Both the position numbers and the translations under genes were made by a program. The notes under the pieces were generated by a model. That model worked only from the letters and a program-made list of their open reading frames with translations. It was not told the DNA's origin and searched no databases. Positions 1 through 23,665 of a DNA stretch of 23,813 bases are shown here, in pieces. The stretch lies in the IMG/VR virus record IMGVR_UViG_3300037489_000160, positions 1 through 23,813 of that record. One strand, 5' to 3'. Origin of the DNA: a virus. Every line of letters begins with the position of its first letter. The stretch's first letter is position 1.

Positions 1-58
1 TATGACCAAATGGACATTCAACCAAATGTTCCCGGAATTTAAAAATGATAAGCATTAA
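1..58 (+). CDS. 3' end (or tiny whole) of an upstream gene, unrecognised
   Basis: A reading frame that is open at the left edge ends with TAA at 56-58. Its visible residues are MTKWTFNQMFPEFKNDKH. It overlaps the start of the polymerase gene by 14 bases, which suggests that the two are co-translated. The ATG at position 2 could be the real start of an 18-residue peptide or an internal Met of a longer protein. The window edge hides which. No function can be assigned. Confidence 0.4.
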   Translation, partial: MTKWTFNQMFPEFKNDKH

Positions 59-2813
59 AACAGAATACAGCTTCCGAAAAGTATTTGGCCATATTGATAA
101 AGTGGCGGAGCGTTGCGCAGCCGTCGGATTAAAAGCTGCGGCGATTGCTGACTATGATAATACCTTTGGGCATGTACAATGGCGCAAGTCTTGCGAGAAG
201 CATGGCATCCACGCTTGCTATGGCGTTACGCTCCGTGTTTATGTCGGAAAACTCGAGAACGAACGCAAAGCGGATTTTATATGGACAACATTCATTGCTC
301 AAAACAATAAAGGGCTAAGGCAAATCAATGAGCTGGTTTCCGAGGCATATGCAAATTTCTATTATGTCCCAAGGTTAAGCTCGCATCGTCTTTTCGAAAT
401 GTTGCCAACTTTAAAAGATAACATGGTAATGTTTAGTCTTAAAAATACTTTGGCGCCTGATACTCAATTTATCCCGAGGCATGACGACAGGCCATTTCAT
501 GTATGGGCTGGTTTTGATAATTACTATCCAGAGATTAAAGATCGGATTGTGTATGAACTTAGTGCGGAGCGTTTCGAAACCAAAACAACGCCGCAACATA
601 TATTAACTAAAGAGGAATGGCTTGAGATATTCCCTCACCGTGATTCTGTTTGGGATGATACTCAGGACTTGTTGTTATCCTTTGATGCTCAATTAACTAA
701 AGCGCCTTTGCTACGGTTTCCGGATAAATTCGATATCAGGAAGCAATGCAAGATTGGTGCAAAATTGAGAAACATAGATTTGACCGACCCAGTATACAAA
801 GCGCGTATGAATCGCGAATTGTTATTGATTAAGAAAAAAGATTACATTGATTATTTTGCGGTCGTTGCGGACCTTATCAACTACGCGAAGGAACATATGC
901 TGGTCGGCCCTAGTCGCGGAAGCAGCGCGGGCTCCTTGGTTTGTTACTTGTTGGGCATTACTGAAATTGATCCTATCCCTTACGGATTAATATTTGAACG
1001 CTTTATTGACGTAACTCGTTTGGACTTGCCTGATATTGATATTGACTTCCCGGACGATAAGCGTTGGATGGTAATTGAATATTTGGAAAATAAATATGGG
1101 AAAGCCAACATTGCTCATATCTGTAACATCAGCCGGCTGAAGCCTAAATCAGCCATTGGGGAATTTGCGAAAGCGCTACAAATCCCCACGTATGAAACGC
1201 AGCCTGTGAAGGATGCGATTATTGAACGGAGCGGAGGAGATGCGCGCGTTGCTATGTGCATAAAAGATACGCTCGAATCGACCGACGCAGGAAAAGAATT
1301 TATTAAAAAATATCCGCCCATGGCATTAGTGGAACATATTGAAGCCCATGCGCGTCATAGCGGAGTTCACGCAGCGGGGATTATTGTTTGTAACGACCCG
1401 ATTACTAAATATGTCGGCTTCAATAGTCGCGACAATGTTGCGATGGTTGATAAGAAAGATGCGGAAGAACTGAACCTATTGAAAATTGATATTTTGGGAT
1501 TGCGCACGCTTACAATATTGGAACAAACCCTAGAGCAAATTGATAAAGGATTTAATTGGCTATACAATTTGCCTTTAGATGATGCTGATACCTTTACAGT
1601 ATTTAATAACATGCGCCTCGCAGGAGTATTTCAATTTGAAGGATACGCGCTACAATCGCTAACACGCCAAATGGAGATAACAGAATTCAATGACATCGTA
1701 GCAATAACATCATTAGCGCGTCCCGGTCCGTTACATTGTGGTGGTGCAACCGACTTCATTGAACGTCGAACGGGACGCAAGCCGATTAAATATTTGCATG
1801 ATTCAATCATTCCTTATACTGAGGAGACGTTTGGTACAATCGTATACCAAGAACAAGTCCTGCAAATAAGTCGCGAAGTTGGAAAGTTGAGTTGGGAAGA
1901 TACAAACCAATTACGTCGAGCGCTGAGCAAAAGTCTTGGTGATGAATTCTTTAATAAGTACAAAGTCAAATTCCTAAAAGGAGCTAAGGAAAATGGCATG
2001 GAGGAATCGGAAGGTATTAAGATATGGGAGAACATGTGTACATTTGGCTCTTGGGCATTTAATAAATCGCACGCGGTTAGCTATGGGCTTATCAGTTATT
2101 GGACAGCATATTTAAAAGCGCATTACCCGTTGGAGTTTGCTGTTGCGATGCTCAACAATGTTCGCGATGACTCCCAGGGAGTGAAACTGTTAAGGGATAT
2201 GGTTGAGAATGAGGGGTTGAAGTATAAGCCTGTTGATGCTGAATATTCTATGGGGACCTGGTCTGTTAATGACGGGCTCTTGATCGGAGGGCTTGTCAAT
2301 TTAAAAGGAATTGGCGCGAAGAAAGCTCAACAAATAATCGACCGGAGGAAAAAAGGATTAAAATTAACACCAGCAATCCAAAAGATAATCGACAAAGCGG
2401 AAACGCCATACAATGACATCTTCCCGGTCCGGAGCCGGTTTGCTGATTATTACAAAAACCCGAGCGCATATAATATAAACAGCACCGGCCTATCGTATCT
2501 AAAAGACGTTCAAGAGGATGGCTCATACATTTTTATCGGATTACTCGTTGACCGAAACTTGCGGGACCTTAATGAGTATGGGAGCGTTGTTAAGCGCGGT
2601 GGAAAAATAATCAAGAAAAATAATCTGTTCCTGAACTTTACGGTCGAAGATGATACAGACAGCATCATCTGTACTATCGACCGATACAAATATCAGGCGA
2701 TGGGAAAGACGATAGCAGAGACCGGGAAAATTGGCGAGGACTTCTATTTGATAAAGGGAAAAATCAGTGGGGATTGGCGGAAAATCTACGTGGAGAAGGT
2801 GAGAAAATTATGA
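45..2813 (+). CDS. dnaE-like: Phage DNA polymerase III alpha subunit (C-family replicase)
   Basis: This 922-residue protein is a C-family DNA polymerase, which copies DNA at the replication fork. An N-terminal PHP-like domain (about 1-65) is followed by the palm, with GPSRGSSAGS at 288-297 and the PDIDIDF motif at 329-335. Its D330 and D332, together with D482 in KIDILGLRTLT, match the three catalytic aspartates of the family. Further conserved blocks are HARHSGVHAAG (435-445), ARPGPL (558-563), YQEQVLQI (601-608) and FNKSHAVSYGLISYW (672-686). A helix-hairpin-helix (about 749-768) and an OB-like fold (about 826-922) end the protein. The PHP metal ligands look lost: Lys replaces His in the usual HSEYS motif, and ADYDN replaces TDHGN. 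The protein is about 240 residues shorter than E. coli DnaE and seems to lack the C-terminal tau-binding region. The start overlaps the previous frame by 14 bases. Identification is secure; its use in phage replication is inferred. Confidence 0.95.
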   Translation: MISIKTEYSFRKVFGHIDKVAERCAAVGLKAAAIADYDNTFGHVQWRKSCEKHGIHACYGVTLRVYVGKLENERKADFIWTTFIAQNNKGLRQINELVSEAYANFYYVPRLSSHRLFEMLPTLKDNMVMFSLKNTLAPDTQFIPRHDDRPFHVWAGFDNYYPEIKDRIVYELSAERFETKTTPQHILTKEEWLEIFPHRDSVWDDTQDLLLSFDAQLTKAPLLRFPDKFDIRKQCKIGAKLRNIDLTDPVYKARMNRELLLIKKKDYIDYFAVVADLINYAKEHMLVGPSRGSSAGSLVCYLLGITEIDPIPYGLIFERFIDVTRLDLPDIDIDFPDDKRWMVIEYLENKYGKANIAHICNISRLKPKSAIGEFAKALQIPTYETQPVKDAIIERSGGDARVAMCIKDTLESTDAGKEFIKKYPPMALVEHIEAHARHSGVHAAGIIVCNDPITKYVGFNSRDNVAMVDKKDAEELNLLKIDILGLRTLTILEQTLEQIDKGFNWLYNLPLDDADTFTVFNNMRLAGVFQFEGYALQSLTRQMEITEFNDIVAITSLARPGPLHCGGATDFIERRTGRKPIKYLHDSIIPYTEETFGTIVYQEQVLQISREVGKLSWEDTNQLRRALSKSLGDEFFNKYKVKFLKGAKENGMEESEGIKIWENMCTFGSWAFNKSHAVSYGLISYWTAYLKAHYPLEFAVAMLNNVRDDSQGVKLLRDMVENEGLKYKPVDAEYSMGTWSVNDGLLIGGLVNLKGIGAKKAQQIIDRRKKGLKLTPAIQKIIDKAETPYNDIFPVRSRFADYYKNPSAYNINSTGLSYLKDVQEDGSYIFIGLLVDRNLRDLNEYGSVVKRGGKIIKKNNLFLNFTVEDDTDSIICTIDRYKYQAMGKTIAETGKIGEDFYLIKGKISGDWRKIYVEKVRKL

Positions 2814-3019
2814 CCAAACGGTATCAGATAAGCGAGGCCCAATTCAACCGGCTACTCGATAAGACCCGGATCTCTAGAAACACCCGGAGAGGGCTTAAAA
2901 AGGTGCTTGTACATGGGAAAACCTACGAGGAGAGCGGGTTCACAAAGCAATTCATCTATAAAAAGATCAAAAGGATCAAGGAGTTAGCGAAGGAAGAAGG
3001 GCTTGAGATTTTTCATTGA
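2810..3019 (+). CDS. Small KorA/TrfB-like helix-turn-helix DNA-binding protein
   Basis: This 69-residue basic protein resembles the DNA-binding domain of the plasmid repressor KorA (TrfB). ISEAQF near the start matches the family's LTESQF, VLVHGKTYEE corresponds to VLVDGKPQAT, and the following GFTKQFIYKKIKRIKEL fits the recognition helix of a helix-turn-helix. A frame starting at 2774 is longer, but the ATG at 2810 is preferred. It has a good ribosome site (GAAGGTGAG) and forms an ATGA overlap with the polymerase stop codon, so the two genes are translationally coupled. A transcriptional regulator acting on the phage's own promoters is the likely role, perhaps on the promoter 18 bases downstream of its stop codon. 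KorA itself has a C-terminal dimerisation domain that is missing here. Family assignment rests on motif similarity read by eye. Confidence 0.6.
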   Translation: MTKRYQISEAQFNRLLDKTRISRNTRRGLKKVLVHGKTYEESGFTKQFIYKKIKRIKELAKEEGLEIFH

Positions 3020-3036
3020 AATATCAGTGAAAAGGG

Positions 3037-3064
3037 TTTACTTTCTCGAGAGATGGACTATAAT
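3037..3064 (+). promoter_or_regulatory. Sigma-70-type promoter for the small-gene operon
   Basis: TTTACT (3037-3042) and a perfect TATAAT (3059-3064) are separated by 16 bases. They lie in the only sizeable non-coding gap in this part of the block, 44 bases before the start codon at 3108. The spacer holds an 8-base palindrome, TCTCGAGA (3044-3051), which could be an operator. Initiation is expected near 3071. The promoter would let the genes from 3108 onward be expressed independently of the polymerase operon. Confidence 0.6.
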
Positions 3065-3107
3065 TATTGATAGTAGTTAAATAAATCAACCCCGAGGAGA
3101 GCGCGCC

Positions 3108-3578
3108 ATGTATACTGTAAAACAAAAAATCAACAAGAAGGTAACCAAAATCATCGACCAATTCGCTACTATCGGCGAAGCCGAAACCTTCATCACCGGA
3201 ACCAACTATTTCATCCACTTCAGCGCCGACGCTATCAGGGCCCAGGGCAATCCCCAGGAGACTTTCTGGAACGGTAAGAACCCCGAGTCAGTAAGCCAAC
3301 TCAACGTCGCTATCGACGGACGCACCTGGTGTGAAATAAGAGAAAATATGTGTCCAGCCCTTGATGATTGGCGGAAGCTTCAAAATGCTTACTATCGCTA
3401 CTACAACGACGGTGACGGTTTTGTAAATAAGCTCCGCCATCTAGCGAACCGCCATGGGATTGAGATTACCGGGTATCATACCTCACGCGATTTCCGCAAC
3501 CCTATTCTGGAAGATAAACTCGAGCAGCTCGCCGACGTAGTATTTGCCGCCGCGCTCCGCGAAAAAATCGCAGCTTAA
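3108..3578 (+). CDS. Hypothetical phage protein, 156 residues
   Basis: The product is not recognised. The start has a clear ribosome site (AGGAG at 3095-3099, 8 bases before the ATG). It is the first gene after the strong promoter at 3037-3064, so it is probably the most abundantly made product of this block. The sequence looks soluble and mixed, with a Lys-rich start (VKQKINKKVTKI), an aromatic stretch NAYYRYYNDGDGF near residue 95, and a helical C-terminus. No signal peptide, membrane segment or catalytic motif is visible. Base composition of the first half is more GC-rich than that of the following gene, which may mean a separate origin. Confidence 0.75.
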   Translation: MYTVKQKINKKVTKIIDQFATIGEAETFITGTNYFIHFSADAIRAQGNPQETFWNGKNPESVSQLNVAIDGRTWCEIRENMCPALDDWRKLQNAYYRYYNDGDGFVNKLRHLANRHGIEITGYHTSRDFRNPILEDKLEQLADVVFAAALREKIAA

Positions 3579-3606
3579 TTCGAATATATAACAAGGAGAC
3601 AAGACC

Positions 3607-3948
3607 ATGACTAATAAAATGAAACCTTTTGACTGTGAAGATTATTTTGGGTTCAGTGGCGCTGAATCGACCGACAATCACGAACCTCATCTAGCTTATA
3701 TAGATTTTAGCAATAGTAATAATCCAGAAGAAAATCATTACTATGTAATAATGGCGAATGATTTAAATGCTGACGAAGATGAAGATGCCCCAACGATTGA
3801 AATTGGAAATCCGGGAGAGGATGAAATTTGTTTTAAAAAAGAATTTCAAACAGCAAGACAAGCCCTCGATTTCGCCAATCATCTTTTATTAAAAGTTGAT
3901 GGCAAAACGAAGTCCGAAATTGACGCTGTGTTAAATTACCTTAACTAA
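3607..3948 (+). CDS. Hypothetical acidic protein, 113 residues
   Basis: This small protein is not recognised. It is strongly acidic, with DLNADEDEDAPTIEIGNPGEDE in the middle as the most charged part, split here only by short hydrophobic residues. The C-terminal third (FQTARQALDFANHLLLK and on) looks helical. The ribosome site AAGGAG lies 8 bases or so before the ATG, inside the leader AGGAGACAAGACC that recurs before the next genes. There is no membrane segment. Small acidic early phage proteins sometimes bind host nucleic-acid-binding proteins or mimic DNA, but nothing here shows that directly. Confidence 0.7.
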   Translation: MTNKMKPFDCEDYFGFSGAESTDNHEPHLAYIDFSNSNNPEENHYYVIMANDLNADEDEDAPTIEIGNPGEDEICFKKEFQTARQALDFANHLLLKVDGKTKSEIDAVLNYLN

Positions 3949-3963
3949 TCCCCCAGACCCAAA

Positions 3964-3977
3964 AGGATAAGACCATG
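3964..3977 (+). promoter_or_regulatory. Repeated translation-start leader AGGATAAGACCATG
   Basis: The 14-base string AGGATAAGACCATG spans the ribosome site and start codon here and again at 4263-4276. Close variants are at 5376-5389 (AGGATAAGACAATG) and 3594-3609 (AGGAGACAAGACCATG). The distance from AGGA to the ATG is nearly constant. Normal ribosome sites in this window do not share the AAGACC part, so this is more than a Shine-Dalgarno match. It could reflect gene duplication or a shared translational control signal. Confidence 0.55.
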
Positions 3978-4247
3978 AGCAATATGAGCTACTGCAGATT
4001 TCAAAATACCCGTAATGACTTCCAAGATTGCCGATACGCTATGGAAGAAATCTTGGAAGGAGGCGAAGAGCCATTGTCAGGCGAAGAACTCGAAGCGGCA
4101 AAACAGTTACTGGACGATGCTGTTGAATTTGTGATGCTGTTTTCGGAAACTTTGAACATTGATTCAGGAAACATCGAGGACCTCGGATACCAAGGCAGCG
4201 TGAAGGATGAAGTCCACCATTTGATGAGCGGTGAAAAAATTAAGTAA
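3975..4247 (+). CDS. MSYCRF-type conserved phage protein, 90 residues
   Basis: The N-terminus MSNMSYCRFQNTRNDFQDC resembles a small protein family common in phage genomes, usually beginning MSYCRFENT and lacking a known function. The remainder is acidic and helical (GEEPLSGEELEAAKQLLDDAVEF). The gene starts right behind the leader AGGATAAGACC and lies 27 bases after the acidic gene. Two cysteines (residues 7 and 19) are the most conserved part of the family as I recall it. Its position next to the DUF932 gene is consistent with an early or middle phage operon. Function is unknown. Confidence 0.7.
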   Translation: MSNMSYCRFQNTRNDFQDCRYAMEEILEGGEEPLSGEELEAAKQLLDDAVEFVMLFSETLNIDSGNIEDLGYQGSVKDEVHHLMSGEKIK

Positions 4248-5928: not shown

Positions 5929-6165
5929 ATGAAAATATTAATGGCGATAATTATTACAGTGGCATTGGCCGGTTGTAATGATGAGGAAATCGAAAACACC
6001 AAGGACATGATCGAGGCCATCGCGAAGGAGCAAGCCACCGAGGCTGTTTGTAAAAAGGCTGACGAATACTTCCTCAAGAAGTGTGTTGGGGATCTCGACG
6101 CCTTAACGCAAGTCGGTTGCGATGAACTCAAAAAGGCGATGCTTGAGCATTGCGTGGTAGAATAA
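5929..6165 (+). CDS. Small lipoprotein with twin C-x10-C pattern
   Basis: This 78-residue protein begins with a lipoprotein signal peptide: MKILMAIIITVALAGC, with lipobox LAGC and the lipidated cysteine at residue 16. The mature part starts NDEE. An Asp at position +2 is not present (Asn is), so outer-membrane sorting is plausible in an enterobacterial-type Lol system. Four further cysteines lie at 41, 52, 64 and 75, giving C-x10-C, an 11-residue gap, then C-x10-C. This looks like two helices that could be stapled by disulfides in the periplasm. The ATG at 5929 is chosen over an in-frame TTG at 5866 because of AGGAGA at 5917-5922 and the signal peptide. It is the first gene of a three-gene envelope cassette. 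No family is recognised. Confidence 0.75.
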   Translation: MKILMAIIITVALAGCNDEEIENTKDMIEAIAKEQATEAVCKKADEYFLKKCVGDLDALTQVGCDELKKAMLEHCVVE

Positions 6166-6167
6166 TC

Positions 6168-6332
6168 ATGCCACGGATAAAAGGCTTCACCCTAATCGAA
6201 TTGATGGTTGTTGTAGCAATTTTAGGCATACTCGCATCAATTCTTATTCCAGCAATCCAAGAACATCAGGAACGCCAGGAAGACAAAGCTGATACATTAA
6301 ATCAAACTGAAAATACAGAGGAGCTAAAATGA
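6168..6332 (+). CDS. Miniature type IV prepilin-like protein
   Basis: The 54-residue product carries a textbook class III signal: MPRIKG then FTLIELMVVVAILGILASIL. Prepilin peptidase of the host would cut after G6 and methylate F7; E11 is the Glu at mature position 5, needed for pilin assembly. The hydrophobic helix ends near residue 30 and is followed only by a short charged tail (EHQERQEDKADTLNQTEN). No globular head domain is present, so the mature protein would be about 48 residues against roughly 100-160 for normal pilins or pseudopilins. The start lies 2 bases after the lipoprotein stop, and its end overlaps the next gene by ATGA. No strong ribosome site is visible, which suggests coupling. 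It could insert into, or interfere with, host pilus or type II secretion fibres; that is inference. Confidence 0.8.
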   Translation: MPRIKGFTLIELMVVVAILGILASILIPAIQEHQERQEDKADTLNQTENTEELK

Positions 6333-19569: not shown

Positions 19570-20907
19570 TTAGCTATTGCCTTTAACACCACCACGCCAT
19601 TCCATAGCAGCAGTGCCATAGTCCAGGCGAACTTTCCACATGATACCATCAATCGTGAAACCCAGTTGCGATTCCAAGTATGGAGTATCAACACCATCCA
19701 AGAAAGCAACCTCAATCACAGGAGCCTCATTTGGATTCGCAATCATATACCACTCGGTTGCACCCAGGCGAGGTTCAGTAATTAATTCTGCAATATTACG
19801 AATTGGATTTGGTTTCTTGCTGTTTGCTTGGCTTGGGTCCGTTTCAGAAGCAATCAAAACATTCAACGTATCTTCCTGTTCAACACCCGCCAGGATATAA
19901 GCAGGCTGAATATTCAGGAAGTCATTTTCATCCACATCTTTCTGTTTCCGCATTAGGGTCCGAGCAGCACCCAAACTTGTAGCAGAAGGAACGGCACCTG
20001 TTGGAAGATTAGCATGATCATTTAAATCAAACAAAGCGATTCCATCATTCATAAGTGGATTACTTTGCAACAGGGCATAGGCATCAGCACCAACAGTACG
20101 ATTAGCAGCGCGTCCCATGAAGCGGAGAATCCGAATGAATCCACCCAAGTCATCATTAATCATTGCCTGACGAGTAAAGGAGATGGCCTTGCCTTTGGTG
20201 GCTGCCTGAATGGTCTCTTTATCTTCACCGAATGAACCAAAGCTATACTCACCACCCTCCGGAATCAAATCAAGTGAATTAAAGGAGCCCAGTTGAATAC
20301 GGTCGTTGACTTTGAAATCAGACACCTCGCCCTTAGCACACCAAGAACTCCAAGTCTCAGGGAAAGTGCCATAAGCCGCACGCAATTCTTTGTTGGCAGT
20401 ATTGTCCAGCAGATAAGGGAAATCGCTGGAGCTATGAGTAAACGCAGCAGCAACAATTTCCATTTTCGTTTTGCCTCGAATACTTACCCCACCCTTCATC
20501 AGACAGGCCTTACCAATTTCCATCAAGGTCGCGCCGCGATATTCATTTTGAGCATCGTGGGTTTTGCTTCCAATCCGCATTTGAAGTGCATCAACTATCT
20601 GATTACGGAATTTTTCACGAGCATCAGCAAGCAACTCAATCCGAGTGTCATCAGTACTCGCCGTAGAACTTTTGCCGATAGCATCAAGCAGCATCTTCCG
20701 AGAATCCTCAATATTGAATTTCTCATCCAGGCACTTATCCATCAGAACACGATGCTCATCGCCATGAAGATTAAACACCGCACGAATCTCCTTACGGCGA
20801 GCATCATCAGCAGCTTCAGCTTTTGCTACAGCCTCATCTGACTTGGCCTTAATCTCATCTGCCTTGGCTTTTTCGGCAGCAGCTATTTCTTCTGGTGTCG
20901 GTTTCAT
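19570..20907 (-). CDS. Nested capsid product from an internal start (inferred)
   Basis: Within the protease-capsid gene, an in-frame ATG at 20907 is preceded by AGAGG (20920-20916) at the ideal 8-base spacing. Translation from there would give a 445-residue protein starting MKPTPEEIAAAEKAKADEIK, that is, an N-terminal helical (delta-domain) segment and the whole capsid fold, without the protease. The helical segment would act as scaffold and be cut off by the protease. This is an inference from the start signal; the longer fusion is also open and in frame. The nested arrangement recalls lambda C/Nu3. Confidence 0.5.
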   Translation of the reverse strand: MKPTPEEIAAAEKAKADEIKAKSDEAVAKAEAADDARRKEIRAVFNLHGDEHRVLMDKCLDEKFNIEDSRKMLLDAIGKSSTASTDDTRIELLADAREKFRNQIVDALQMRIGSKTHDAQNEYRGATLMEIGKACLMKGGVSIRGKTKMEIVAAAFTHSSSDFPYLLDNTANKELRAAYGTFPETWSSWCAKGEVSDFKVNDRIQLGSFNSLDLIPEGGEYSFGSFGEDKETIQAATKGKAISFTRQAMINDDLGGFIRILRFMGRAANRTVGADAYALLQSNPLMNDGIALFDLNDHANLPTGAVPSATSLGAARTLMRKQKDVDENDFLNIQPAYILAGVEQEDTLNVLIASETDPSQANSKKPNPIRNIAELITEPRLGATEWYMIANPNEAPVIEVAFLDGVDTPYLESQLGFTIDGIMWKVRLDYGTAAMEWRGGVKGNS

Positions 20908-21621
20908 ATCATTTTCCTCTTCATTGATTTTGCCAGCTGCTGCCGACAAATTATTCACAGACCCATTATCTGAGTCAGCACCTTTTAGATTAGCAGGGTC
21001 AAGTATACTACGAGACTCCACTTTTCCAAAATCTTTCGGAATGTTCTTGAAATCATATTTGCTCAAATCAAAGTGGGCAGCGATTTCAACCGCATCCGTA
21101 ATTTCATCAATAAATCCAAGCTCCAAAGCTTCATCAGAATCCATAACAGTTTCTTCATCCATCATCACTGATATAGTTTCTCTATCGAGCCCAGACTTTT
21201 CAGAATAAACTGTAATTACACGTTCCTTCAACTTGTCCATTATCTCTGCTGTCTTTCGAAGATCGCTCGATTCCCCCATACCAACGCCAAGTGGATTATG
21301 AATCAATATTAATCCATTAGCAGCCATCAATCGACGGTCACCAGATTGCGCAACGAGGGAAGCCATTGACCATGCTATGCTTTCAACGTCCGTGATTATT
21401 TCAGCAGGATGTTTTTTGAGAATGTTATAGATCGCATTTCCTTCAGTCATCGACCCGCCAGGGGAATTAATCCGGACTGTGATTTGTTTAACATCACCAA
21501 GGGCTTTAACATCCTTCGCAAAATCTTTGGATGTAATTCCCCAGATACCGATTTCATCATAAATCATAATTTCAGCAGACTGAGTTGCCTTATTATGAAT
21601 CATCTTGTACCAATTTTTCAT
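19570..21621 (-). CDS. Fused ClpP-like prohead protease and major capsid protein
   Basis: The 683-residue protein joins a head maturation protease to the capsid subunit. Residues of about 10-185 are ClpP-like (S14 family): NSPGGSM at 52-58, the nucleophile Ser85 in AWSMAS, and His108 in LILIHNP. The third member is probably an acidic residue of MDEETVMDSDEALELGFIDEI. After a linker (to about 235) comes an Ala/Lys/Glu-rich coiled coil (EEIAAAEKAKADEIKAKSDE) and a helical stretch, then the capsid domain (about 330-683), of HK97-like type by size and position. The ATG at 21621 is chosen because AGGAGA lies 6 bases upstream. Upstream ATGs at 21627 and 21645 are too close to it or lie in the previous gene. 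The protease would cut the capsid's N-terminal arm during head maturation. Confidence 0.9.
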   Translation of the reverse strand: MKNWYKMIHNKATQSAEIMIYDEIGIWGITSKDFAKDVKALGDVKQITVRINSPGGSMTEGNAIYNILKKHPAEIITDVESIAWSMASLVAQSGDRRLMAANGLILIHNPLGVGMGESSDLRKTAEIMDKLKERVITVYSEKSGLDRETISVMMDEETVMDSDEALELGFIDEITDAVEIAAHFDLSKYDFKNIPKDFGKVESRSILDPANLKGADSDNGSVNNLSAAAGKINEEENDMKPTPEEIAAAEKAKADEIKAKSDEAVAKAEAADDARRKEIRAVFNLHGDEHRVLMDKCLDEKFNIEDSRKMLLDAIGKSSTASTDDTRIELLADAREKFRNQIVDALQMRIGSKTHDAQNEYRGATLMEIGKACLMKGGVSIRGKTKMEIVAAAFTHSSSDFPYLLDNTANKELRAAYGTFPETWSSWCAKGEVSDFKVNDRIQLGSFNSLDLIPEGGEYSFGSFGEDKETIQAATKGKAISFTRQAMINDDLGGFIRILRFMGRAANRTVGADAYALLQSNPLMNDGIALFDLNDHANLPTGAVPSATSLGAARTLMRKQKDVDENDFLNIQPAYILAGVEQEDTLNVLIASETDPSQANSKKPNPIRNIAELITEPRLGATEWYMIANPNEAPVIEVAFLDGVDTPYLESQLGFTIDGIMWKVRLDYGTAAMEWRGGVKGNS

Positions 21622-21631
21622 GTCCATTCTC

Positions 21632-23665
21632 CTATTTAAGTCCAATCCACGTATTAAGTGTTAAGTAATTATCTAAAAAAGTCAAAACCCCTTGAGCTAT
21701 TCCGACAACCGATCCAAGAATATCATACTCCAAAATTAAATGTTTGCCATTTGGTATATTAGTAATTGCTGTAATATCCAAAGTCTCATAATATTGCCCA
21801 TCACCAAGATCGTTAAGAGCCAAAGATTTTTGAACCCATCCCGAAGTTTTAAAAGTATCGTCATCAAAATCCAAATATGAATTTGTTGTAAGATTATCGC
21901 GTACCTTTACAGAAACCGTTAATCCAGTTACTCCTCCTGAATTATTTACTGATAATGAAATTGGAGCCGCAGTTTCAAATCTCGTTATAGAAATTTGACC
22001 ACCTGTATCTATACTAGCAGCCGCTACAACAGCACCAGCAACCGTAACCGAACCAACAGCACTCGTCGCTTCGACGCCAGTGAGCGCTACAGTTCCAGAT
22101 TTAGTAAAACCTAAAGAGCCAACAGCACTCGTTCCTTCGACGCCTGTTATTCCAATTTCTACATCTGCGCCCGTCGATACAGAACCGACAGCGCTCGTTC
22201 CCTCGACACCCGTTATAGCAACACTCGTCCCAAGGCTTACACTTCCAACAGCACTCGTTCCTTCGATGCCTGTTATAGAAACACTCCCTGATTTAGTAAG
22301 TCCAACTGAACCGACAGCGCTCGTTCCTTCTACTCCTGTTATTGGAATAATTACATCACCGCCAGCAGCAACACTTCCGACAGCGCTCGTTCCTTCTACT
22401 CCTATTAATGCGACTGAATGAACAGAACCAACAGAGCCAACAGCACTTGTTCCTTCGACGCCTGTTATAGAAACACTCGTTCCAGGGCTTACACTTCCAA
22501 CAGCACTCGTTCCCTCGACGCCTGTTATTGGAATAGTTACATCACCACTAACAATAACATTCCCAGCAACACTCGTCCCCTCAACACCCGTTAATGCGAC
22601 TGAATGAACAGAGCCAACAGAGCCAACAGCACTCGTTCCTTCTACTCCTATTATTCCAGCGCTGCCTCCTTTAGTAAATCCGACTGAACCAACAGCACTC
22701 GTTCCTTCTACTCCTGTTAATGCTACTGTTCCTGATTTGGTAAAACCTAAAGAACCAACTGCGCTCGTTCCTTCAACCCCCGTGAGCGCTACACTTCCCG
22801 ATTTAGTAAAGCCTAAAGAGCCAACTGCTGATGTTCCTTCAACTCCCGTTATAGGAACAGTTACGGATATTGACGCGGTAACACTACCAACAGCACTCGT
22901 TCCTTCTACTCCAATAATTGCTTTCGAAATTTCTGGAGATACAGATCCAACAGCACTCGTTCCTTCTACTCCAGTGAGCGTTGCCCCAGCACCAGCGGCT
23001 GCAACTATTTCTATATAATGGCCAGCATTTTCATCAACTGCATTCCAGTCAACAGTTACCGCAGATGGTGCACCGTCTAATAAATCAATAACGTAATAGG
23101 CTTGGTCTGATGTTCCTGATATACCTGTGGCACCATTAAATATATCATTGAAAGTAGCTGAACCAAGTCTATTAGAAGCCGGGTCCCCATCACCCCCTTT
23201 AAAGGTACATGCAGCATATAAAGCATTTCCAGCTGATCCTGCGGCTGGAGTGAACACGGTTCCTGCCGCTGTTGAATTATTAACCTTCTCCTGAAGAAAG
23301 TTAGTGGCATCAGCCACGCTTGTCGCGACAGTTCCAAGATAATTAACAGCAGTAGACCAAACGGTATCAGTAGTCGAAATAACAATATCAACCGTACCAG
23401 AGCCAGCCGTTGGGTTAATAAGTCCATATGTGTATACGCGCACATCGCCGTTACTACCGCTTGCTGTAGTAGCATGAACAAGTGTGAGTGGTTCACCACC
23501 ACCAAGACTCCATTCCGGAGTTCCAACTACATTCTCACCAGCCTCAAGACCAAAAGATACCAGAGTTAGCGTTGTTCCAACATCAACTGTGTGAGTAATA
23601 TCAGCAGTCGTGCCATTACTACTTGCGGTGAAAATGCTAGTTGTTACGCCACGTGTGACAGCCAT
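21632..23665 (-). CDS. Repeat-rich virion protein between portal side and capsid gene
   Basis: This 677-residue protein has three parts. Residues of about 1-225 form a beta-sandwich domain (VYTYGLINPTAGSGTVDIVI, YLGTVATSVADATNF, NALYAACTFKGGDGD) of a type met in phage structural and secreted proteins. Residues 231-551 are 15 repeats of TGVEGTSAVGSV plus a variable stretch, spaced exactly 20 or 22 residues. The C-terminus (about 552-677, with ISLSVNNSGGVTGLTVSVKVRD) is another beta domain. There is no signal peptide. The gene starts 4 bases after the previous stop and ends 10 bases before the capsid start, so it belongs to the late operon. A capsid appendage or decoration is likely by position, but this is inference. 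Confidence 0.75.
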   Translation of the reverse strand: MAVTRGVTTSIFTASSNGTTADITHTVDVGTTLTLVSFGLEAGENVVGTPEWSLGGGEPLTLVHATTASGSNGDVRVYTYGLINPTAGSGTVDIVISTTDTVWSTAVNYLGTVATSVADATNFLQEKVNNSTAAGTVFTPAAGSAGNALYAACTFKGGDGDPASNRLGSATFNDIFNGATGISGTSDQAYYVIDLLDGAPSAVTVDWNAVDENAGHYIEIVAAAGAGATLTGVEGTSAVGSVSPEISKAIIGVEGTSAVGSVTASISVTVPITGVEGTSAVGSLGFTKSGSVALTGVEGTSAVGSLGFTKSGTVALTGVEGTSAVGSVGFTKGGSAGIIGVEGTSAVGSVGSVHSVALTGVEGTSVAGNVIVSGDVTIPITGVEGTSAVGSVSPGTSVSITGVEGTSAVGSVGSVHSVALIGVEGTSAVGSVAAGGDVIIPITGVEGTSAVGSVGLTKSGSVSITGIEGTSAVGSVSLGTSVAITGVEGTSAVGSVSTGADVEIGITGVEGTSAVGSLGFTKSGTVALTGVEATSAVGSVTVAGAVVAAASIDTGGQISITRFETAAPISLSVNNSGGVTGLTVSVKVRDNLTTNSYLDFDDDTFKTSGWVQKSLALNDLGDGQYYETLDITAITNIPNGKHLILEYDILGSVVGIAQGVLTFLDNYLTLNTWIGLK
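22013..22975 (-). repeat. 15 tandem in-frame repeats (20 or 22 codons each)
   Basis: The core GVEGTSAVGS is repeated 15 times at residues 231, 251, 273, 295, 317, 339, 359, 381, 401, 421, 443, 465, 485, 507 and 529. All distances are 20 or 22 residues, never odd. One copy reads EGTSVAGN, one GIEGTS and one GVEATS. At the DNA level the cores differ by synonymous changes (for example TCTACT versus TCGACG on the plus strand), so the repeats are kept at the protein level rather than being a recent DNA expansion. Some linkers recur (LGFTKSG, GSVHSV). Confidence 0.95.

Follow-up and report, generated by a model that had tools for sequence, protein, structure and literature searches.

A probable conserved internal start in phage protease-capsid fusion genes and the protease-free capsid precursor it would produce

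The window analysed here, a stretch of 23,813 nucleotides of viral DNA (IMG/VR record IMGVR_UViG_3300037489_000160), encodes a fusion of protease, scaffold and capsid protein, and comparison with related genes suggests that this gene very likely contains a second, conserved start from which a protease-free capsid precursor is made. We put at roughly 0.85 the probability that one gene yields two co-terminal proteins in this way, that their co-assembly sets the protease dose below one per subunit, and that the scaffold is then cut. A one-to-one fusion would place a protease on every capsid subunit, and initiation at a second, conserved site would account for the way in which these phages can escape this. 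Many phage and prophage genomes would then encode a further protein that is missing from their annotation and, if the reading is correct, the protease dose of the prohead could be tested by altering a single start site.

The fusion gene and its family

An earlier reading of these letters (the sequence-only reading) had placed a ClpP-like protease and a capsid protein in a single frame, and this holds. The frame runs on the minus strand from the ATG at 21621 to a stop at 19570-19572 (683 aa), open throughout, with an AGGAG 7 nt upstream of its start codon (Table 1), and Pfam locates PF00574 (Clp protease) at residues 11-176 and PF25209 (Phage_capsid_4) at residues 393-680. A programmed frameshift or stop between the halves was considered and rejected, since the frame is open. 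Against NF045540, the profile for ClpP-like prohead protease/major capsid protein fusion proteins, the protein scores 669.4 bits (cut-off 475) over profile positions 2-649 of 652, a full-profile match. A tblastn search with the fusion found some match in 1393 phage records and at least 80% coverage in 68, and the matches listed include Gifsy-2, Fels-1, mEp213, mEp460 and F10. Because of this score and these relatives, we assign the ClpP-scaffold-capsid fusion to an already known kind.

The ClpP fold with its catalytic Ser and His is supported by PF00574, by Foldseek matches to ClpP and by the invariance of Ser85 and His108. Homology to the S49 proteases (the family of lambda C) was not found, as SppA_dom scored 26.8 bits, where the cut-off is 155, and ClpP-type families led. 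In an AlphaFold model of the fusion (mean pLDDT 73, pTM 0.43, from a 23-sequence alignment), the ClpP domain ends near residue 180 and is followed by disorder over residues 198-242 and by helices over residues 243-317, with a long helix beginning at 243. A single-sequence search found no solved structural relative of the capsid half, and the best 60 of 114 matches in a profile search, as well as the 50 Foldseek matches listed, were all to ClpP.

Downstream of the fusion gene lie cement, head-tail and tail genes. Directly upstream (21632-23665, minus strand), where relatives have a portal gene, lies a gene whose 677-aa product repeats GVEGTSAVGSV many times and has no match in Pfam or PHROG. 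The window also encodes a 922-aa DNA polymerase III alpha-like protein (45-2813, plus strand) and a 60-aa frame (6150-6332, plus strand) with a pseudopilin-like N-terminus (GFTLIELMVVVAILG); phage F10 has an annotated prepilin-type protein near its tail genes. A 100% identical copy of the fusion protein is encoded at 2168-4216 of a 39758-base IMG/VR contig (L003).

Table 1. Coordinates of the fusion gene, its parts and its two start sites in the window
Feature	Position	Strand	Basis or remark
Protease-scaffold-capsid fusion gene	19570..21621	-	683 aa; NF045540, 669 bits
ClpP-like protease domain, residues 1-180	21082..21621	-	Pfam, AlphaFold model, Foldseek; Ser85 and His108 invariant
Linker, residues 181-242	20896..21081	-	mostly disordered in AlphaFold model
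Helical scaffold (delta-like) segment, residues 243-317	20671..20895	-	AlphaFold model
HK97-type capsid part, about residues 334-683	19573..20622	-	Pfam match at 393-680 and AlphaFold model
AGGAG ribosome site of the full-length ATG at 21621	21629..21633	-	overlaps stop of upstream gene
AGAGG internal ribosome site	20916..20920	-	read from sequence
Internal ATG, Met239	20905..20907	-	sequence and conservation
Predicted protease-free scaffold-capsid product, 445 aa	19570..20907	-	predicted from conservation

Conservation of the proposed internal start

Within this frame, the ATG at 20907-20905 is preceded by AGAGG (GAGG), which ends 8 nt before it; the sequence-only reading had named this site and its 445-aa product correctly. 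It had also set the ATG where the linker ends and the helical segment begins, and the AlphaFold model agrees, since the disorder covers residues 198-242 and the helix begins at 243, which puts Met239 at the linker's end. Seen in the window alone, however, the site is unremarkable and weak evidence, because 12% of other in-frame ATGs match equally well (71 of 596 in the 28 window-group genes found first, for a Shine-Dalgarno match of at least 4 nt at a spacing of 4-12). At 4 nt (GAGG), the window's internal Shine-Dalgarno sequence belongs to the weakest sort, and when the linker of the window's own gene is recoded synonymously, 58% of trials yield a match.

The case for the start comes from its relatives. 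A first set, drawn from one viral scan, one genome scan and phage records, comprised 172 fusion frames (159 distinct), and in a tree made from it with the linker left out (589 columns, FastTree support 0.914), the 28 first-found genes with a linker ATG and a Shine-Dalgarno sequence of 4-7 nt formed exactly one side (28/28). The window's group had thus been marked by the site itself, and four further scans were therefore made for more members. The enlarged set held 266 distinct sequences from 410 loci, after short frames (5) and copies of the window itself in plus-strand orientation (2) had been excluded. The tree of these 266 fusions, again without the linker, separates a group of 113, the window's, from one of 153 that includes Gifsy-2 and F10. 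The window's group is defined as the smallest tree side holding the original 28 (support 0.946), and one of its members, L016, has the other protease type described below.

A linker ATG with a Shine-Dalgarno sequence at a spacing of 4-10 is present in 103 of the 113 members of the window's group versus 1 of the 153 in the Gifsy-2-type group, and among the loci fetched later in 74 of 84 versus 1 of 22, where all such counts cover related sequences and not independent events. Six of the ten exceptions in the window's group carry a linker GTG or TTG with a Shine-Dalgarno sequence (AAGGAG-6-GTG in L224 and L292, AGGAG-6-TTG in L304, L305 and L335, GGAG-6-TTG in L331), and in 4 of the 113 (L271, L275, L279 and L312) the linker ATG is kept with a poor Shine-Dalgarno match. 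When GTG and TTG are counted too, the site is found in 109/113 of the group and 80/84 of its later-fetched loci; their presence in place of ATG fits a start codon rather than a required methionine. Conservation in close relatives was a check set beforehand, and the four nearest (L178, L179, L018 and L019, 45-56% identical to the window) all keep the internal start, with the ribosome site at a spacing of 8-10 nt although the surrounding residues differ. Taken across these relatives and the whole group, the conservation of the site lies far beyond chance, and the internal start as such, as first proposed, is probably real.

It is also informative to examine the Gifsy-2-type group. The view that this group has no internal start was rejected when a scan further upstream, covering all in-frame start codons, found a start with a Shine-Dalgarno sequence at the equivalent of window residue 194 in 153/153 members. 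This site lies just after the protease domain, approximately 45 residues upstream of the window group's site, and consists mostly of GAGGA or AGGAG before ATG-CC, with Met-Pro in 152/153; an equivalent start was found in 0/113 of the window's group. By these counts, each of the two groups retains one putative internal start, in a position of its own. Among Gifsy-2-type representatives below 80% identity the site is present in 46/46, where 1000 recoding trials left a mean of 21.2 and a maximum of 33; it came to light by inspection and has no later held-out set.

One more scan addressed fusions to another protease type, which we label S78/U35 after a related record's annotation (Rhodobacter, Stenotrophomonas S1 and Bordetella PY223). 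It gave 85 loci with 61 full fusions; most of the 24 dropped loci were cut or lacked the N-terminal part of this type, and two (L465 and L485) were dropped by a filter flaw though both have the junction Met. A junction start codon with a Shine-Dalgarno sequence is present in 44/49 representatives and absent from 5/49, a count favoured by picking the best site in the junction region, and other in-frame ATGs of these fusions reach the same match in 61/510 cases. In Shewanella 1/44 and Vibrio 1.049.O the junction Met has no Shine-Dalgarno match of at least 4 nt, and in FP_Epona the protease and capsid are two genes at the junction, with AGGAGGT before the capsid gene. L485 and L465 were considered as further natural splits and rejected, the stop lying before the likely real start. 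We think it probable that protease-capsid fusion genes generally have a single junction start, whichever of the two protease types they contain, that two clades each keep one at positions about 45 residues from each other, and that annotating this widespread arrangement as a single gene misses a second protein, the protease-free precursor.

Codon choice, alternative explanations and the ratio of products

If the site were needed only as peptide, its nucleotides should be no more constrained than the encoded residues. In the 28 genes, synonymous recoding of the upstream codons with each gene's own codons lowered the number with a match from the 28 observed to an average of 17.1 and a maximum of 24 over 2000 trials, and for 68 window-group representatives below 80% identity, taken only from genes that already have the site, recoding left 42.6 on average and at most 53 in 1000 trials. 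The codons themselves are skewed: upstream Glu is GAG in 84/113 positions versus 46% elsewhere, Lys is AAG in 54/68 versus 59%, and Gly is GGA in 8/12 versus 5%. These comparisons indicate that the site is conserved beyond what the amino acids need. Predicted mRNA structure is also weakest exactly at the internal site (mean -9.6 versus -16.2 kcal/mol at other in-frame ATGs), but accessibility was downgraded as independent proof, as the energies change little on recoding (-9.6 real versus -11.4 recoded; -9.8 versus -10.0 under 65% identity). The encoded residues account for most of the low structure, which recoding largely reproduces, so that it fits a start without proving one.

It is conceivable, although we consider it unlikely, that the linker motif is instead kept at the peptide level, for instance because the phage's own protease cuts there, in which case the short form would arise by proteolysis and the ATG would be incidental. 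Phage capsid proteases cut such precursors, and a pattern of Lys/Glu-Glu, two or three residues and Met is visible in the peptide too. However, the codon choice exceeds the peptide's needs, six genes have GTG or TTG instead of ATG, the nearest relatives share the ribosome site but differ in the residues around it, and the sites of the two groups lie about 45 residues apart. Very improbable, in our estimate, is that the site is a relic of the start of a once separate capsid gene, kept by descent and now useless; the two-gene arrangement of FP_Epona, with its AGGAGGT, and the joining of other protease types at the same place would suit such an origin, but a strong Shine-Dalgarno sequence is kept at 45-56% protein identity, and the site is found in 109/113 genes (GTG and TTG included) while the linker varies freely. 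That a single ATG merely happens to follow GAGG, as the 12% and 58% given above would allow for the window alone, is contradicted by the conservation of the site in the group (74/84 among later-fetched loci) and has next to no likelihood.

We favour the reading in which the conserved start is used. Ribosomes at 21621 would then make protease-scaffold-capsid, and those at 20907 would make scaffold-capsid without the protease. The long and short products would co-assemble through their common scaffold and shell parts, and the prohead would thereby hold a built-in protease dose of less than one per capsid subunit, with the protease cutting the scaffold off all subunits before expansion. The sequence-only reading went further and expected the capsid form in excess and the fusion to be rare, a ratio that we find unsupported: in the window, the Shine-Dalgarno sequence is stronger at the full-length start (AGGAG) than at the internal one (GAGG), and a simple score combining duplex and structure also puts the full-length start ahead (-4.7 versus -2.6 for the internal start). 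By the same score the internal start is the better one in 52/98 of the window's group and in 125/150 of the Gifsy-2 group. As the full-length ribosome site shares nucleotides with the stop codon of the gene before it, translational coupling to that gene may also matter for the full-length start.

Relation to known systems

Within its own NF045540 family of ClpP-scaffold-capsid fusions, the window's protein is approximately 35% identical to that of Gifsy-2 over the whole length. Gifsy-2 is without the window's linker start and has its own AGGAG-9-ATG some 45 residues upstream, with a predicted product of 476 aa; its gene is called a "tripartite capsid gene" in print, as worded in a reference in PMC8538268. 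The NF045541/phrog_4523 fusions (Rhodobacter RcOceanus, Stenotrophomonas S1 and Bordetella PY223) have a homologous scaffold-capsid half and a junction ATG with a Shine-Dalgarno sequence. The window matches those profiles only from about residue 233, so that the protease half differs.

Nested in-frame protease/scaffold genes are textbook knowledge. In phage Mu (I/Z) and in the herpesviruses (UL26/UL26.5), protease and scaffold are co-terminal nested products, although there, in contrast to the window, the capsid protein lies outside the nested product. In lambda C/Nu3, as in the window's gene, a nested start lies in frame within the gene for a capsid protease, and the window's gene has one mark of this kind, a conserved in-frame internal start codon with a ribosome site; the parallel with lambda drawn by the sequence-only reading is thus apt as a way of working. 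Used as a positive control, lambda did not score at its annotated nu3 start (C residue 239), which has no Shine-Dalgarno match. At C residue 309, presumably close to where the Nu3 start has since been revised, AGGAGG lies 4 nt upstream and predicted structure is the least among in-frame ATGs. These two positions are 833 (annotated start) and 1043 (codon 309 of C) in the lambda sequence used, L418.

Among the papers listed by our literature searches, which covered few of the subscription journals, none reports an internal start for a fusion of protease and capsid; Effantin et al. 2010, reportedly on the tripartite capsid gene of Gifsy-2, may describe one. What seems to be new here, within the known theme of nested genes, is a conserved internal start that would give a protease-free form of the capsid protein. 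In lambda, C carries the annotation S49 peptidase, the nested start gives scaffold alone, and the capsid protein has a gene of its own, E, whereas the short product of the window's gene would include the capsid protein itself.
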